Assembly: GCA_023053685.1 (NCBI GenBank)
Contig: JALIGW010000021.1
Location: 12,388,834 to 12,452,833, forward strand
DNA: 64,000 nucleotides
Direction: 5' to 3'
DNA from: Diadophis punctatus similis
Lineage: Eukaryota; Chordata; Lepidosauria; Squamata; Dipsadidae
Part shown: one piece after another, positions 11,956-59,652 of the stretch
Numbering within the stretch: position 1 is the first letter of the stretch
How the letters are laid out: each line of letters begins with the position of its first letter
Program-made: the position numbers and the translations under genes
The notes under the pieces: generated by a model
The model's database searches: none
What the model saw: the letters and a program-made list of their open reading frames with translations, nothing else
Told to the model about the DNA's origin: nothing

Positions 11956-12184
11956 CACAATATTTATAGGCACCCCAATGCTACAGATTCCTACTGAGAG
12001 TAAGACATCTGAAGTTCAGCAGCACTGAGTAGACAGACGGATTCTCCTTGCCTGCTCCAGGTGCCCTTGTCTTCAGGATTATACACCGAGAACACCCCAA
12101 AAGAAGTCTCATTTCACCAATTGACAAGACCAAGAGTTCGCATGTAGTGATAGAATATTCATTGCTCAGGGTTGAAATGTGGGG

Positions 12185-12375
12185 TCCTTGGTGCTCTCTG
12201 TGCTTTGCGGACATCTCATTACCAAACTAGATAACATCATCAGTGCTAGAAAGGAAGGGGGTGCAGGATGGAGGAGGAGGACTGTGGGATCCTTGGCGCT
12301 CTATGAATTTTGTTGTTTTCTTGCAGGTGTTTCATTACCCAGCTAGGGAACATCATCAGTGCTAGAAGGGAATGG
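12185..12375 (-). repeat. Two hammerhead-like repeat units, decayed
   Basis: Two minus-strand units, each with a CTCTCTGTGCTTTG- or TTTTCTTGCAGG-type arm, the complement of GAAA, and TCATCAG (complement of CTGATGA) followed by TGCTAGAA. Motif spans are 12203-12252 and 12319-12367. The first has GAGAT instead of GAAAC. The second keeps CTGATGA and GAAAC but has ACC where the cleavage triplet GTC is expected. Confidence 0.6.
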
Positions 12376-12389
12376 GGTTTGCAGAGAAT

Positions 12390-12440
12390 GAGAAAGGGAG
12401 GAGGAGGAGGAGGAGGAGGAGGAGGAGGACGACGACGACT
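12390..12440. repeat. (GGA)n tract
   Basis: About 12 GGA units followed by GAC triplets. The same type of tract accompanies the hammerhead-like repeats at 24471, 24640 and 37595, so it appears to belong to that repeat unit. Confidence 0.9.
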
Positions 12441-12444
12441 GGGG

Positions 12445-12625
12445 GAGTCCTTGGTACTCTTTGAGCTTGGTTACTTTCTTGCAGATGTTTCATTACTCAA
12501 CCAGATAACAGATAGCAAATCCCACTCCCTTCTAATACTGATGATGTTACATGGTTGGGTAATGAAATGTCTGCCCAAAAACAACCGTCAGAGAGCACCA
12601 AAGATCCCACAGATTGCATCTCTTT
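12445..12625 (+). repeat. Hammerhead-like repeat units in inverted order
   Basis: A broken minus-strand half (12475-12510) is followed by a plus-strand unit at 12531-12580: TTCTAATA, CTGATGA, hairpin GTTACA..GGGTAAT, GAAATGTC, TGCCCAA. The core boxes survive, and the stem I pairing is partly lost. Downstream CAGAGAGCACCAAAGATCCC is the usual continuation of this repeat. Confidence 0.6.
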
Positions 12626-15345: not shown

Positions 15346-15409
15346 CTCCACTGCTTTAGCTCACACTGTAGGGGAGTCGCTCTTTTCTCCCTACCACTTT
15401 ACATTTAGA

Positions 15410-15795
15410 ATAACAGAGTTGGAAGGGACCTTAGAGGTCTTCTAGTCCAACCCCCTGCTTAAGGAAGGAAACCTTACACCACTTCAGACAAATGGTTATC
15501 CAATCTCTTCTTAAAAACTTCCAGTGTTGGAGAATTCACAGCTTCTGGAGGCAAGCTGTTCCACTGATTAATTGTTCTAACTGTCAGGAAATTTCTCCTT
15601 AGCTCTAAGTTGCTTCTCTCCTTGATTATTATCCACCCGTTGCTTCTTGTTCTACCCTCAGGTGCTCTGGAGAATAGTTTGACTCCCTCTTCTTTGTGGC
15701 AGCCCTTCAAGTATTGGAAGACTGCTATCAAGTCATCCCTGGTTCTTCTTTTCACTAGCCTAGACATACCCAATTCCTGCAACCGTTCTTCATAT
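15410..15795 (-). mobile_element. CR1 LINE 3' fragment
   Basis: Minus-strand CR1. The frame at 15474-15782 keeps the ORF2 C-terminus (MQELGMSRLVKRRTRDDLIA, ending VFKKRLDNHLSEVV) without a stop before the natural end. The copy is 5'-truncated at the LQELG region, right beside the next CR1. Confidence 0.9.
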
Positions 15796-15802
15796 ACAGA
15801 AT

Positions 15803-16320
15803 ACAGAATAACAGAGTTGGAAGGGACCTTGGAGGTCTTCTAGTCCAACCCCTGCTTAGGCAGGAAACCCAACACCACTTCAGACAAATGGTTATCCAAC
15901 ATCTTCTTAAAAACTTCCAATGTTGGAGCATTCACAACTTCTGGAGGCAGGTTGTTCCACTGATTAATTGTTCTAACTGTCAGGAAATTTCTCCTTAGTT
16001 CTAAGTTGCTTCTCTCCTTGTTTAGTTTCCATCCATTGCTTCTTGTTCTACCCTCAGGTGCTTTGGAGAATAGTTTGACTCCCCCTTCTTTGTGGCGACC
16101 CTTGAGATATTGGAAGACTGCTATCATGTCTCCCCTGGTCCTTCTTTTCATTAAACTAGACATACCCAGTTCTTGCAACCGTTCTTCATATGTTTTAGCC
16201 TCCAGTCCCCTAATCATCTTCGTTGCTCTTCTCTGCACTCTTTCTAGAGTCTCCACATCCTTTTTACATTGTGGCGACCCAAACTGGCTGCCGTATTCCA
16301 AGTGTGGCATTATAAAATGC
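15803..16320 (-). mobile_element. CR1 LINE 3' fragment (best-preserved ORF2 end)
   Basis: The minus-strand frame 15840-16310 (156 codons) covers the CR1 ORF2 C-terminus: PHLEYGSQFGSPQCKKDVET, then [20 protein letters not shown] and GDMIAVFQYLKGRHKEGGVK. It represents the region after the reverse transcriptase domain. The rest of ORF2 is missing. It lies in tandem with the CR1 copy immediately to its left. Confidence 0.92.
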
Positions 16321-17439: not shown

Positions 17440-17539
17440 GCTCAGGGTTGTCCTAGGTGCTCTCTGAGTTTTCTTGCAGACGTTTCATGACCCAACTAGG
17501 TAACATAATCAGTGCTAGAAGGGAGTGGGGGTTGTAGAG
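17440..17539 (-). repeat. Hammerhead-like repeat unit cut by an LTR element
   Basis: Motif at 17471-17520 (minus): TTCTAGCA, CTGATTA, hairpin GTTACC..GGGTCA, GAAAC, GTC, TGCAAGAA. The CTGATGA box carries one substitution, but stem I pairs at 7 of 8 positions. The unit continues as GGGAGTGGGGGTTGTAGAG and is broken at 17539 by the LTR element. It resumes at 24471 with AGAGGAAGAGGAGG. Confidence 0.7.
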
Positions 17540-24470: not shown

Positions 24471-24643
24471 AGAGGAAGAGGAGGAGGAGGAGGAGGAGGA
24501 GGAGGAGGAGGAGGAGGAGGAGGAGGAGGAGGAGGAGAGGACTGTGAGGTCCTTGGTGCTCTCTGAGCTTGCTTGTTTTCTTGCAAATGTTTCATTACCC
24601 AACTAAGTAACATGATCAGTGCTAGAAGGGAATGGGGGTTGTA

Positions 24644-24674
<31 letters not shown>

Positions 24675-24960
24675 GGAGGAGGAGGAGGAGGAGGAGGAGG
24701 AGGAGGAGGAGGAGGAGGAGGAGGACAATGACGACTATGGGGTCCTTGGTGCTCTCTGAGACTTCTTGCAGACGTTTCATGACCCAACTAGGTAACATTA
24801 TCAGTGCTAGAAGGGAGTGGTGTTTGCAGAGAGAAAGAGGAGGAGGAGGTGGAAGAGGAGGAGGAGGACGACTGTGGGGTCCTTGGTGCTCTCTGAGCTT
24901 GCTTGTTTTCTTGCAGACATTTCATTACCCAACTAGGTAACACCATCCATTCTTTTGGTC
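24471..24960 (-). repeat. Three tandem hammerhead-like units with (GGA)n tracts
   Basis: Units of about 170-190 bp, each made of a GGA tract, GGGGTCCTTGGTGCTCTCTG, a TTTTCTTGCAGAC arm and the reverse of the hammerhead-like core, followed by TGCTAGAAGGGA. Motif spans on minus are 24579-24627 (CTGATCA, GAAAC), 24764-24812 (CTGATAA, GAAACGTC) and 24909-24950 (left arm lost). GGA tracts occur at 24480-24538 and 24640-24723. Frames here are polyproline/polyserine/polyarginine artefacts. Confidence 0.75.
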
Positions 24961-25919: not shown

Positions 25920-26052
25920 AATCAGAACAGAGCTGGAAGGGACCTTGGAGGTCTTCTAGTCCAGCCCCCTGCTCAAGCAGGAGAACCCATATCATTTCAG
26001 ACAAGTGGCTGTCCAGTCTCTTCTTAAAAACCTCCAGCGATGAAGCACCCAC
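25920..26052 (-). mobile_element. CR1 3' fragment fused to a hammerhead-like repeat
   Basis: Minus-strand CR1 3' end (AGAGCTGGAAGGGACCTTGG to CTTCTTAAAAACCTCCAGCG) ends at GATGAAGCACCCACTGGGCC. A hammerhead-like unit (CATTGGTGATG) begins there. The same junction occurs in the opposite orientation at 37720-37760, so the chimera was duplicated as a unit. Confidence 0.8.
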
Positions 26053-26055
26053 TGG

Positions 26056-26280
26056 GCCAGCATTGGTGATGTTACCCAGTTGGGTAAAGAAACGTCTTCA
26101 AGAAAACAACCAAGTTCAGAGAGCACCAAGGACCCTACAGTCTCCTCCTTCCCCCTCTTCCTCTTCCTCCTCCTCCTCCCAAATGCCACTCCCTTCTAGC
26201 ACTGATGATATTACCTAGTTGGGTAATGAAACGTCTTCAAGAAAACGACCAAGTTCAGAGAGCACCAAGGACCCCACACT
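26056..26280 (+). ncRNA. Two hammerhead-like motifs, the second intact
   Basis: The second motif (26194-26243) keeps every conserved box. Stem I 5' arm TTCTAGCA (26194-26201) pairs at 6 of 8 positions with TTCAAGAA (26236-26243). CTGATGA is at 26202-26208, a 6-bp stem II ATTACC/GGTAAT (26210-26215 with 26222-26227) encloses a TAGTTG loop, and GAAA (26228-26231) is followed by CGTC, whose C (26235) is the expected cleavage nucleotide. One extra T (26209) lies between CTGATGA and stem II. Stem III is only AC/GT without a loop, so activity would require a dimer through self-complementary ACGT. The first motif (26060-26108) has TTGGTGA. Confidence 0.65.
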
Positions 26281-26435
26281 TTAACTCTGAGATACAAATA
26301 TTCTCTCTCTTTTTTTGTGTTTAGTAATTCTCAAAAGGAAACAGGGAATACGGAATTCAGCCAGATATTCTGCATGGGTCCCGTTGAATGAATAAGTCTA
26401 GGAACCTAACAGAGAAAGAACAATTCCCCTACCTC

Positions 26436-26515
26436 TATTTATCTAGCACTGATGATGTTACCTAGCTTGGGTAATGAAACATCTTCAAAAAAAACCACCA
26501 AGCTCAGATTTTGTT
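26436..26515 (+). ncRNA. Hammerhead-like motif, CpG-decayed
   Basis: ATCTAGCA, CTGATGA, GTTACC..GGGTAA, GAAAC, ATC, TTCAAAAA at 26441-26490. The change from CGTC to CATC looks like CpG decay and would remove the GUC triplet. The repeat continues as CCACCAAGCTCAGA and then joins Penelope-like sequence. Confidence 0.55.
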
Positions 26516-26720
26516 CAAGAGGCAACTGGACTTTTTTTTCCCCTGAAGACGTTTTGCTTCTCATCCAAGAAGCTTCTTCAGTTTAATTTTCTTCAAGAAA
26601 AAACAAAGAAAGTCCAGATGTCTCTTGAAAAAGCACCTTTGGGACAACCGTGACCTGGATGACCGAGAATCTCCATAGACAACCAAGCTCAGAGAGCACC
26701 AAGGGTATCTCATGTCTACT
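26516..26720 (-). mobile_element. Penelope-like fragment with second hammerhead-like family
   Basis: Minus-strand motif at 26542-26588: CTGAAGA, hairpin GCTTCT..AGAAGC (26560-26578), then AAAACGTC. It is flanked on the plus strand by AAGTCCAGATGTCTCTTG, GCACCTTTGGGACAACC and GTGACCTGGATGACCGAGAA, sequence I associate with Penelope-like retroelements. Hammerhead motifs are known in that class. No reverse transcriptase or GIY-YIG frame is visible here. Confidence 0.5.
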
Positions 26721-36739: not shown

Positions 36740-36825
36740 TCACTCTAGCACTGATGATGTTACCTGGTTTGGATAATAAAACATCTGCAAGAAAATAAGC
36801 AAGCTCAGAGAGCATTAAGATGGCC
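36740..36825 (+). ncRNA. Hammerhead-like motif, decayed
   Basis: CTCTAGCA, CTGATGA (36751-36757), hairpin GTTACC..GGATAAT, AAAAC, ATC, TGCAAGAA at 36743-36792. G12 of GAAA is changed to A and CGTC has become CATC, so it should be inactive. The repeat continues with AAGCTCAGAGAGCATTAAG. Confidence 0.55.
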
Positions 36826-37512: not shown

Positions 37513-37735
37513 CTCTCTGAACTTGGTTGTTTTCTTGAAGACGTTTCATTACCCAACTAGGTAACATCATCAGTGCTAGAAGGGAGTGGCGTTTGGGAGG
37601 AGGAGGAGGAAGAGGAAGAGGAAGAGGGGGAGGGGGGAAGGAGGAGACTGTGGGGTCCTTGGTGCTCTCTGAAGGTGGTTGTTTTCTTGAAGACGTTTCA
37701 TTACCCAACTGGGTAACATCACCAATGCTGGCCCA
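37505..37735 (-). ncRNA. Two hammerhead-like motifs, the first intact
   Basis: The first motif, 37532-37581 on minus, reads TTCTAGCA, CTGATGA, T, hairpin GTTACC..GGGTAA, TGAAACGTC, TTCAAGAA, with all core boxes conserved. A purine-rich GGA/AGAGG stretch (37595-37648) separates it from the second unit (37684-37730), which has TTGGTGA instead of CTGATGA. Tandem arrangement with about 150-bp spacing suits a dimeric hammerhead. Confidence 0.65.
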
Positions 37736-37837: not shown

Positions 37838-37965
37838 CCCATGTCCCAAAGGAGCTTTTTCAAAAGGAAACTAGACTTCCTTTGTTTTTCCTCGAAGACG
37901 TTTCACTTCTCATCCAAGCAACAGCTTCAGTGAACAGTTGCCTCAAGGAAAAACAAAGAATAGAG
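37838..37965 (-). mobile_element. Penelope-like fragment with hammerhead-like motif
   Basis: ATGTCCCAAAGGAGCTTTTTC, then minus-strand CTGAAGC (one substitution), a GCTTGGATGAGAAG hairpin region, GAAACGTC and TTCGAGG at 37890-37935. Ends with AGGAAAAACAAAGAATAGAG. Confidence 0.45.
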
Positions 37966-39795: not shown

Positions 39796-39899
39796 TACAT
39801 ATATAGAGCTATAAAAAATAAAAAAAATAAAAACGCGTCAATTATACAGAAAGAAATAGCTTCTGATATATTTTTCAGCAGTTATAAATACAGTTTTAA

Positions 39900-40125
39900 T
39901 CAAACCTAAGGAAACATCTGCAAGAAAACCACCAAGCTCAGAGACCACCAAGGACCCCAAGGTTCTCCTCGTCCTCCTCATCCTCCTCCTTGTCCTCGTC
40001 CTCCTCCTCCTCTCCACAAACCCCACTCCCTTCTAACACTGATGATGCTACCTAGTTGGGTTATGAAACGTCTGCAAGAGAAACACCCAGCTCAGTGAGC
40101 ACCAAGGACCCCTCCTTCCAACCTT
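39900..40125 (+). ncRNA. Hammerhead-like repeats, one with intact core boxes
   Basis: A truncated unit (GGAAACATCTGCAAGAAAACC, about 39910) is followed by CCACCAAGCTCAGAGACCACC and a CCTCGTC/TCCTCC tract. A complete unit follows at 40031-40080: TTCTAACA, CTGATGA, hairpin GCTACC..GGTTAT, GAAACGTC, TGCAAGAG. Core boxes are intact, but stem II has mismatches, so activity is uncertain. Confidence 0.58.
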
Positions 40126-47468: not shown

Positions 47469-47612
47469 CAGGGGTCTCCAACCTTGGCAACTTTAAGACT
47501 TGTGGACTTCAACTCCCAGAATTCCACAGCCAGCAAAGCTAACAAAGCTGGCTGTGGAATTCTGGGAGTTGAAGTCCACAAGTCTTAAAATTGCCAAGGT
47601 TGGAGACCCCTG
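47469..47612. mobile_element. Palindromic (foldback) hAT MITE
   Basis: 144 bp that is almost a perfect palindrome: CAGGGGTCTCCAACCTTGGC pairs with the complementary end, and ACTTCAACTCCCAGAATTCC with GGAATTCTGGGAGTTGAAGT, leaving a loop of about 16 bases. The exact 8-bp duplication ATCTAGTC lies at 47461-47468 and 47613-47620. A transcript would fold into a hairpin of about 64 bp. Confidence 0.95.
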
Positions 47613-48302: not shown

Positions 48303-48500
48303 GTTTCAGGAGGCTACTGGACTTTCTTGTTTTTTTTTCTTTTGAAGACATTTCGCTTCTCATCCAAGAAGCTTCTTCAGCTCTGACAGGATGGTGGGGA
48401 TGGGAAGGATTTATATTCCTTGCAGACAGCTGGTCATTTGCATCCTTTTAGAGGATCTTTGAAGCACTTGAAGGTTTATCTGTGTCTTCAGGGTCACCTG
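48303..48500 (-). mobile_element. Penelope-like end with hammerhead-like motif (left arm)
   Basis: Minus-strand motif 48341-48388: CTGAAGA, extra A, stem II GCTTCT..AGAAGC (6 bp), GAAATGTC, TTCAAAAG. Outer blocks CAGGAGGCTACTGGACTTTC and inner blocks CTTATATTCC-like and CAGGGTCACCTGA are repeated in reverse at 48640-48935, so the two arms form an inverted repeat. Confidence 0.55.
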
Positions 48501-48599: not shown

Positions 48600-48935
48600 A
48601 AAGTCTGTAGAGATTCTCAATCATCCAGGTCATGGTTGTCCCAAAGATGCTTTTTTCCCCAAAAGAACCATTAGTCAAGTGACCCTGAGGAAACAGATAA
48701 ACCTCCAAGTGGCCTCAATGACTCTCTAAAAGAATGCAAATGACCAGCTGTCTGCAAGGAATATAAATCCTTCCATTCCCCACCATCCAGTCAGAGCTAA
48801 AGAAGCTTCTTGGATGAGAAGCAAAACGTCTTCAACAGAAAAAACAAGGAAGTCCAGTTGCCTTCTGAAAAAAGCACCTTTGGGACAACCATGACCTAGA
48901 TAACGGAGAATCTCTACAGACTGCAGATGGCCACA
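48600..48935 (+). mobile_element. Penelope-like end with hammerhead-like motif (right arm)
   Basis: TAGAGATTCTCAATCATCC and GGTCATGGTTGTCCC (minus sense) are followed by TCAAGTGACCCTGAGG, TGCAAATGACCAGCTGTCTG and the plus-strand motif 48793-48836 (CTAAAGA, GCTTCT..AGAAGC, AAAACGTC), then AAGTCCAGTTGCCTTC and GGACAACCATGACC. The core has one change in each box. Confidence 0.55.
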
Positions 48936-53500: not shown

Positions 53501-54350
53501 GGAAGATCAAGTTCCAAGACCAGATCTACCAGAATGTAGGTGCCTTTCACAGCAGAAGACAAGAACTTAGTCATTAACTTCTTTCCAAAGGTGTACCTAG
53601 ATATCTATGCTTCCACAGGACATATTGGATCTCCAGCAAAGAGATTCCGTCACTCTCTCCATGCCTATTGAGAAGATCAAGATCTATGAGAACCTCTACC
53701 AGGACTTAGCTGCCTTTCTCAGCAGAAGATGAGAACTTAGTTGTTGATTTCTTTCCAAATGTGCACATAGATATCCATGCTTCCATAGGACCCATTAGAT
53801 CTCCAGAAAAGAGATTCCTTCACCCTCTACATGCCTATTGAGAAGATCAGGTTCTAGGAGAACCTCTACGGGGACTCAGCTACTTTTCCCAGCAGAAGAC
53901 AAGGACTTAGTTGATTATTTCTTTCCAAATGTGCTCAGAGATATTCATGCTTCCATAGGACCCATTAGATCTCCAGCAAAGAGATTCCATCACTCTCTCC
54001 ATGCCTATTGAGAAGATCAAGTTCTTGGAGAACCTCTACCAGGACTTAGCTACTTTTCCCAGCAGAAGACCAGAACTTAGTTTCTGATTTCTTTCCAAAT
54101 GTACTTGTATGTAGTCATGCTTCCATATGACCCATTAGATCTCCAGAAAAGAGATCCCTTCACCCTCTCCATGCCTATTGAAAAGACCAAGTTCTAGGAG
54201 AACCTCTACCGGGACTTAGCTACTTTCCCCAGCAGAAGACCAGAACTTAGTTGCTGATTTCTTTCCAAATGTACATGTAGGTAGTCGTGCTTCCACAGGA
54301 CACCTTAGATCTCCAGAAAAGAGATTCCTTCACCCTCCAAATGCCTGTAT
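53501..54350. repeat. Five-copy 170-bp tandem repeat
   Basis: The block ATGCCTATTGAGAAGATCAA and its variants start at 53661, 53831, 54001, 54171 and 54341, exactly 170 bp apart each time. Other shared blocks are GACCCATTAGATCTCCAG, GATTTCTTTCCAAATGTGC and CAGCAGAAGACAAGAACTTAG. Copies differ by scattered substitutions but not by length. No coding signal. The unit length is close to nucleosomal and centromeric satellite monomers. Confidence 0.92.
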
Positions 54351-59419: not shown

Positions 59420-59652
59420 ATGAATTTTCCCAAAGGTGCTTTTTTTTTTCCAACCGTGACCTGGATGACTGAGACTCTCCATAGACATTGAGAAAAATGA
59501 AGTCTCTCTTTAGATGGCAACCCTTATTAACCCAGCTTTTTGGATGAGGTGCAAAACATCTTCAAAACAAACAAACAAAAACCCAAGAAAGTCCAGGTGC
59601 CTCCTGAAAAAGCACCTTTGGGACAACCATGACCTGGATGACTAAGAATATA
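59420..59652 (+). mobile_element. Penelope-like fragments
   Basis: CCAAAGGTGCTTTTTTTTTT and CGTGACCTGGATGACTGAGA, then TTTTTGGATGAGGTGCAAAACATC (a decayed hammerhead-like 3' half), AAGTCCAGGTGCCTCCTG, GCACCTTTGGGACAACCATG and a second CCTGGATGACTAAGAA. Two tandem copies of the same end. Confidence 0.5.

Follow-up and report, generated by a model that had tools for sequence, protein, structure and literature searches.

The repeat copies analyzed here very probably derive from a Penelope-like element (PLE) with a minimal type I hammerhead ribozyme that lacks stem III, and represent its terminal region (the pseudo-LTR with the start of the ORF) in decayed form. They occur in a stretch of 64,000 nt from the genome of the snake Diadophis punctatus similis (contig JALIGW010000021.1, assembly GCA_023053685.1), hereafter termed the window, and elsewhere in the same genome. 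The evidence lies in the anatomy of the motif, the covariation between two families of copies, the linkage to the end of an ORF, the two alternative 3' ends, and the structure of the arrays and inverted copies.

The hammerhead motif in the window

On the + strand, positions 26194-26243 of the window read TTCTAGCA-CTGATGA-t-ATTACC-tagttg-GGTAAT-GAAACGTC-TTCAAGAA. The boxes, spacing and repeat positions named in an earlier, sequence-only reading are all present in the window, and the extra base after CTGATGA, the stem-loop II of 6 bp and 6 nt and the loopless AC/GT stem III are as it described them. The core boxes are those which we take to be common to the Rfam hammerhead families, and the core CUGANGA...GAAA...UH with its cleavage triplet, in type I order, is intact at 26202, 37540 and 40039 (boxes only). 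The copies of the earlier reading form family F1. Its list omitted the partial F1 copies at 12474-12519 (-) and 39871-39928 (+) and an entire second family, F2, which reads CTGAAGA-a-GCTTCT-tggatg-AGAAGC-GAAACGTC and is represented by 4 window copies. The spacing of F2 is identical to that of F1, whereas the sequence of its stem II is unrelated. The features are as follows.

26192..26245, + strand: F1 hammerhead with intact boxes and stem II; stem I mismatched at 2 of 8 pairs; second ATG changed to ATA, first ATG kept
26246..26313, + strand: 3' part of the F1 unit at 26192; the point of the short end lies near 26278 (CCCCACA) and is followed by the long tail (CTTTAACTCTGAGATACAAATATTCTC...)
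26053..26106, + strand: decayed F1 copy; C3>T and A6>G; upstream unit in the array of the 26192 copy
26140..26179, + strand: TCC-rich spacer between two F1 units
26439..26493, + strand: decayed F1 copy; one extra loop base; CATC
37530..37583, - strand: F1 hammerhead with intact boxes and stem II; within sequence shared by duplication with the copy at 26 kb
37682..37735, - strand: decayed F1 copy; C3>T and A6>G
40029..40082, + strand: F1 hammerhead with intact boxes and two broken pairs in stem II; long tail follows
39871..39928, + strand: partial F1 copy; model E 0.011; BLAST match 39907-39959; upstream unit of the 40 kb array
12200..12253, - strand: decayed F1 copy; last unit of a minus-strand array, with the long tail at its end
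12316..12369, - strand: decayed F1 copy
12474..12519, - strand: partial F1 copy, from the covariance model
12528..12581, + strand: decayed F1 copy; head-to-head partner of the minus-strand array; short end
17469..17522, - strand: F1 hammerhead; G8>T; long tail
24576..24629, - strand: F1 hammerhead; G8>C; CATT
24761..24814, - strand: F1 hammerhead with G8>A and one broken pair in stem II
24906..24957, - strand: partial F1 copy; first unit of a three-unit array
36741..36795, + strand: decayed F1 copy; one extra loop base
26538..26591, - strand: F2 hammerhead; CTGAAGA, stem II GCTTCT/AGAAGC; G12>A
37887..37940, - strand: F2 hammerhead with A9>C and one broken pair in stem II
48337..48390, - strand: F2 hammerhead; one CpG-type change, CGTC>TGTC
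48787..48840, + strand: F2 hammerhead; G5>A and G12>A

A weak F2 match was also observed at 59521-59570 (+). The pattern CTGANGA-N19-GAAACGTC, with up to 2 mismatches, matches the window 15 times, compared with a mean of 0.49 per shuffle in 100 dinucleotide shuffles of the window, none of which reached 15. One match (26543-26576, +) is a palindrome artefact, the reverse side of a near-palindromic F2 copy, which leaves 14 genuine matches, 10 of F1 and 4 of F2. A stricter scan, allowing at most 1 mismatch per box and demanding at least 5 stem II pairs, gave 9 window sites versus 1 in all 100 shuffles together. A loose scan with 2 mismatches per box was set aside as uninformative alone (20 window sites versus 6-20 in 20 shuffles).

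By BLAST, the window holds 16 full or partial F1 copies and one 26-nt tail fragment, and a covariance model of the window recovers the same F1 copies. This model, built from 15 window sequences, recovered all 14 coordinates given in the sequence-only reading, 11 of those copies having been in its training set and three (24906, 26439 and 36741) outside it. The F1 copies at 37532, 37684, 12203, 12319, 17471, 24579, 24764 and 24909 lie on the minus strand. Those at 37532 and 40031 had been described as having all core boxes intact, which holds for the boxes of both; at 40031, 2 of the 6 stem II pairs are broken.

Boxes and stem II are intact together in only 2 of the 11 ungapped F1 window copies (26202 and 37540). 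These lie in 25958-26263 (+) and 37830-37512 (-), respectively, which match at 91% over 319 aligned nt, flank included, and the two copies were thus rejected as independent evidence, both being within one duplicated block. With these two duplicated and stem II broken in the 40031 copy, the window provides one independent well-preserved hammerhead, so that the argument depends on the two families and on copies elsewhere in the genome. Both 26202 and 37540 also carry TTCAAG in place of TGCAAG, breaking one stem I pair; hence none of the 15 tabulated copies has every element intact.

Several further features of the window were observed. The halves of the duplicated compound repeat (25958-26263 and 37830-37512) are inverted relative to each other, lie about 11.5 kb apart and extend into flank beyond the F1 units. 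The flank at 25.9 kb is presumably CR1-like, and by eye it resembles a 396-bp unit that is tandemly duplicated at 15407-16191. Among the 11 ungapped F1 copies, G8 carries three different substitutions (17479-17512, 24586-24619 and 24771-24804, all -), from which no inference is drawn. A 92-nt inverted repeat at 47495-47586, perhaps a small transposon, has a match to Rfam mir-5408 on each strand that falls short of the gathering score, and a 170 bp tandem repeat is present in 4.9 copies at 53502-54337.

Secondary structure and covariation

In an alignment of 11 F1 and 4 F2 window copies, 75.2% of the cells in the named stems are paired and 15 cells are changed on both sides; none of 500 shuffles was as high in this cell count, in the paired percentage or in covariation score. 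Taken alone, the count of 6 pairs showing a double change is unremarkable, being matched or exceeded in 103 of the 500 shuffles. All of the measures fall when the 3' partner is shifted by 1-3 columns. Most double changes are one F1/F2 difference common to several copies, and they therefore amount to about one event per pair. Stem II, with 91% of its cells paired, covaries once F2 is added to F1, and the presence of the same motif in F2 with compensating stem II changes supports the hammerhead reading originally proposed for F1. Stem I is weaker (63%): the TGCAAG form makes 7 of 8 pairs and is found in 4 of the 11 F1 copies (12326, 17479, 24586 and 24771), and the TTCAAG form at 26202 and 37540 makes 6 of 8.

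A stem III with a loop is absent from the F1 and F2 window copies, the AC and GT strands being loopless in the monomer. The minimum-energy structures predicted for four single copies are not those of hammerheads; in three of them, all F1, parts of stems I and II are retained, but GAUG pairs with CGUC. The sequence-only reading had suggested that two copies could form a dimeric stem III through the self-complementary ACGT. This agrees with published work on PLE hammerheads, as far as the available text of that work goes, but the two-strand folds of two copies predict no such dimer: they are joined along stem II and not through ACGU.

The Rfam covariance search that had been put forward as a check, with the lack of any hit named as a refuting outcome, gave no match. 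With release 15, no hammerhead was found in the whole window at the gathering score or at E<=10, in a 141-nt stretch searched alone at E<=10, or in four other loci of the same genome at the gathering score. The search had no positive control for the stem-III-less class, and since the class lacks stem III the missing match is not taken as decisive.

Linkage to a probable Penelope-like ORF

The genome was searched in an assembly of 1.78 Gb in 419 contigs. One 85-nt F1 copy gave 1473 first-look candidates, of which 40 were scored. At some loci matching the window copy, and at locus L009, a TATA-like box precedes the hammerhead, and sequence resembling the end of an ORF is found further upstream. 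A 76-aa stretch of this ORF end from L009 matched in all 150 scored of 3487 candidates. Thirty loci were then defined by the PLE-type C-terminal protein and not by the RNA, one of them (L047) being the query's own place. The hammerhead model matches downstream on the same strand at 28 of the 30, no such match being found at L056 and L057. The motif lies within 400 nt of the ORF end at 22 loci, at a distance of 120-252 nt (median 171.5 nt), or at 21 of 29 without the query locus; at six others the downstream match is found only at 516-1084 nt, the match at L067 being of F2 type. In the 22 linked loci the CTGANGA box is intact in 19, and a TATA-like box, by a loose pattern, is present in the 55 nt upstream of the motif in 17.

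The upstream ORF contains Y(I/V)G(Q/E)TGR, which we take to be the GIY-YIG signature of PLEs, at 5 of the 30 loci. The Pfam GIY-YIG domain was matched below its cut-off (19.1 bits against 22.6; E 0.0016) in one of four proteins scanned, and this protein itself gave 7059 first-look candidates in the genome, with all 150 of those scored matching. Pfam returned nothing for the C-terminal ORF fragment. When the genome was scanned for GIY-YIG, 2 matches were obtained among the 150 scored of 685 candidates, one weak and the other SLX1-like by reading. The F1 hammerhead itself overlaps an open frame, or ORF start (MMLPSWVMKRLQENNQ...); counted from A9, the predicted cut falls after base 28. A search of the PDB with the 36-aa ORF start and exact-pattern scans of viral and prokaryote contigs gave no matches.

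The link to Penelope-like elements, raised in the sequence-only reading, is thus supported by the F2 family with its compensating stem II changes, by the PLE-type ORF end at 22 of 30 loci and by a PLE tail signature. The layout, the tail and a weak endonuclease match indicate that the element is probably a PLE.

Two 3' ends, arrays and inverted copies

F1 copies stop at one of two points about 35 nt apart, which is the tail signature of PLEs. The short end is at ...AAGGACCCCACA, 43 nt past the predicted cut and +71 from A9; the long end is about 35 nt further, after TTTCAACCCTGAGCTACAAATATTCTC..TTTTATT (near +106 from A9). The F2 copies, judged by eye, likewise stop at either of two positions, near GCACCTTTGGGAC or GAGAATCTCTACAGAC, with about 35 nt between them. 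In F1, this offset corresponds to the optional 30-40 bp 3' tail of PLEs. At the 22 ORF-linked loci, the 3' ends of 11 were unclassifiable.

In 38 loci (172 kb) that are the best matches to one window copy, the covariance model finds 208 hammerheads, and a separate scan based on the core boxes finds 195, of which 189 are F1. They form 66 same-strand arrays: 23 single units and 43 head-to-tail arrays of at least 2 units, the largest with 12. The units are spaced at a median of 137 nt (range 87-255), many of them being joined by a TCC-rich spacer, and all six period-3 tandem-repeat rows of the window (GGA, GAG or CTC) adjoin F1 copies. Arrays of 7 to 12 units, mostly with TCC-rich spacers, were observed head-to-tail at L020, L044, L043, L046 and L033. 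A comparison of flanks anchored on the arrays was clouded by further units and other repeats.

When unit hits on both strands from 69 sources were joined, 88 clusters were obtained: 38 single, 30 same-strand, 18 divergent (head-to-head), 1 convergent and 1 mixed. The divergent clusters all derive from the window and the F1-chosen loci; they numbered 18 among the first 60 clusters and 18 among 88 after the 30 ORF-end-chosen loci, which contributed none, had been added. Both outer ends could be classified in 15 of the 18, three having an unclassifiable end, and these 15 comprise 13 pairs of a long with a short end, 2 short with short and none long with long. The outer ends of the single and same-strand clusters are 23 long, 32 short (27, and 5 with TCC), 12 cut and 1 at an edge. 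The long/short pairs are found at L012, L014, L018, L019, L022, L023, L027, L032, L035, L042, L045 and L046 and at 12178-12611 of the window. The discordant ends suggest, from 15 clusters whose orientation and end classes had been inspected before the long/short test was framed, that each side of the target uses a different one of two putative start points of reverse transcription.

Conservation, coding capacity and alternative explanations

In the 189 F1 copies of the core-box scan, both core boxes are intact in 58, stem II also in 22 and at least 7 of the 8 stem I pairs also in 7, and the core is changed in 131. The scan admits copies by their core, so that these intact fractions are biased high, as is the figure of 0.959 from the analysis of stem variants. 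In 235 hits of a whole-unit HMM, conservation is 0.953 in the core, 0.887 in stem II, 0.923 in stem I, 0.927 in loop II and 0.895 in the rest of the unit. The core exceeds this remainder in conservation (permutation p 0.003), with a residual selection bias since copies with few core mismatches had served to train the HMM; stem II shows no such excess. Drift of the boxes at the neutral rate, which the sequence-only reading had named as one of the outcomes that would speak against it, is thus not seen in the sample, within that bias. The CpG decay of CGTC that it had described is evident: the two CpG columns are conserved at 0.68 in these hits, versus about 89-95% elsewhere in the unit. Among 171 ungapped copies, the change GTA>GTC (giving GGTCAT), which breaks one stem II pair and is synonymous for Val, is present in 46%, from 24 of 39 sources, so that lineages with an imperfect stem II have multiplied. 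The change CTG>CTT, also synonymous, breaks one stem I pair in 13%. A third variant, ATG>ATA (20%), is a G>A change at the base of stem II that is non-synonymous and converts G-U to A-U, the pair being kept.

The position of the motif over an open frame raises an alternative, which we consider unlikely, whereby the boxes are simply the conserved start-codon region of the PLE ORF; the likeness to a ribozyme would be inherited and would no longer matter, the letters reflecting coding. The frame CTG ATG ATG TTA CCT AGT TGG GTA ATG AAA CGT is indeed open across the motif in the tabulated F1 copies, and the two common variants that break a pair are both synonymous. In F2, however, all four copies have a stop inside the motif in the frame of the F1 peptide, and yet boxes and spacing are kept; what the families have in common in their boxes is thus not accounted for by coding. 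The non-synonymous ATG>ATA variant, which keeps its pair, and the excess conservation of the core also argue against this alternative, and past the cut site the third codon positions (0.922) are not more variable than the first (0.901) and second (0.916). Coding conservation as the full story was rejected on the F2 stops and the codon positions.

The tandem layout invites a different interpretation, likewise improbable in our judgment, in which the F1 arrays are a non-autonomous, retrozyme-like element whose units of about 137 nt cut themselves as dimers and circularise, and are copied back by PLE machinery to yield arrays. The number, length and regular spacing of the arrays (43 of 66 with at least 2 units, up to 12, median 137 nt) and the ACGU palindrome would suit dimer cleavage. 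In the available text of the sources, animal retrozymes are tandem repeats of 150-450 bp with type I hammerheads, some (axolotl) have a very weak helix III and cleave better as dimers (PMC7229834), and PLEs are proposed as retrozyme helpers (PMC7761336). Most published retrozyme hammerheads nevertheless keep some helix III, as far as the available text of PMC7229834 states, whereas F1 is loopless there; the core is changed in the majority of sampled copies; and some arrays hang directly on the PLE ORF end (L054 and L055), so that arrays can equally be repeated pseudo-LTR ends. As for a chance likeness in an unrelated short repeat, for which only the missing Rfam match speaks, it is extremely improbable: the shuffled windows yielded 0.49 matches on average against the 15 observed, and a single site in 100 when stem II was required, against 9. 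Chance origin was rejected on these shuffles, on the covariation between F1 and F2 and on the ORF linkage.

We think that the ancestral element probably carried a hammerhead that was working or protein-assisted, with a degree of constraint on its core as long as the element remained active, and regard the copies in the window as dead. In the working element, the end of the endonuclease ORF would be followed by about 170 nt, a TATA-like promoter, the hammerhead, and an ORF start overlapping it from A9, with two start points for reverse transcription some 43 and 78 nt beyond the cleavage site. The ancestral RNA may have been cut after GUC as a dimer in which two ACGU palindromes form stem III; alternatively, cleavage may have required the help of the element's protein, as reported for the Anolis element PAc. 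Each genomic copy would represent a cDNA that was initiated at either start point and terminated prematurely upstream, which would account for the many copies that hold only hammerhead units.

Relation to known elements

The closest known system is PAc, a Poseidon-type PLE of Anolis carolinensis, thus of a different host. According to the available text of its description (PMC11167929), PAc has a stem-III-less hammerhead and two adjacent start points of reverse transcription with a 30-40 bp tail between them. Its RNA needed protein to cleave, insertion in vitro proceeded without cleavage, and no RNA was found to end at the cut; its protein cleaves and extends both target strands, with no difference in reverse-transcription start between them. 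In the same text the favoured start lies 111-118 bp into the ORF, whereas the F1 ends are near +71 and +106 from A9, and the start is alike on both strands in vitro, whereas the genomic inverted copies described here are long on one side and short on the other.

Minimal type I hammerheads without helix III, in tandem in the pseudo-LTRs of PLEs and cleaving as dimers, are described in the accessible portions of PMC7761336 and PMC6466107, which cite Cervera and De la Pena 2014 and Luense et al. 2017. By these descriptions the hammerheads of PLEs and Terminons (also Arkhipova et al. 2017) are type I, without helix III and tandem, with dimer cleavage reported or proposed. F1 agrees with this class in that it has no helix III loop, stands beside a PLE-type ORF and is tandem in 43 of 66 arrays. 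It resembles the animal non-LTR retrozymes, as portrayed in the available text of PMC7229834, in its short tandem units and type I hammerhead, some of these having a very weak helix III, but differs from them in having no stem III loop at all and in its linkage to a PLE ORF end. The window differs from the Rfam hammerhead families in giving no match at E<=10, and the Rfam library thus did not flag these copies.

The literature searched, as far as its accessible text extends and with most subscription journals outside its scope, contained no snake PLE hammerhead; by title or start of the abstract, PMC11167929 was the only paper on a reptile hammerhead, and papers on squamate repeats that mention Penelope exist. 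The class of motif is already published, and F1 and F2 extend it to another genome.

As ribozymes these copies are ordinary; they are useful for the structure of insertions. The available text of the Anolis study leaves the purpose of the hammerhead open, since cleavage was not needed for insertion in vitro (PMC11167929), and a genome with many PLE ends lets that purpose be asked. The end structure of the inverted copies provides a direct and checkable prediction on two-ended priming in PLE insertion. It is a serious, though still tentative, possibility that PLE insertion involves two cDNAs, one for each cut strand of the target, which begin at different start points of reverse transcription and meet head-to-head, the long tail marking one target strand and the short end the other. 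If so, the 18:1 excess of head-to-head clusters and the 13 long/short pairs among 15 would be an in vivo trace of this process.
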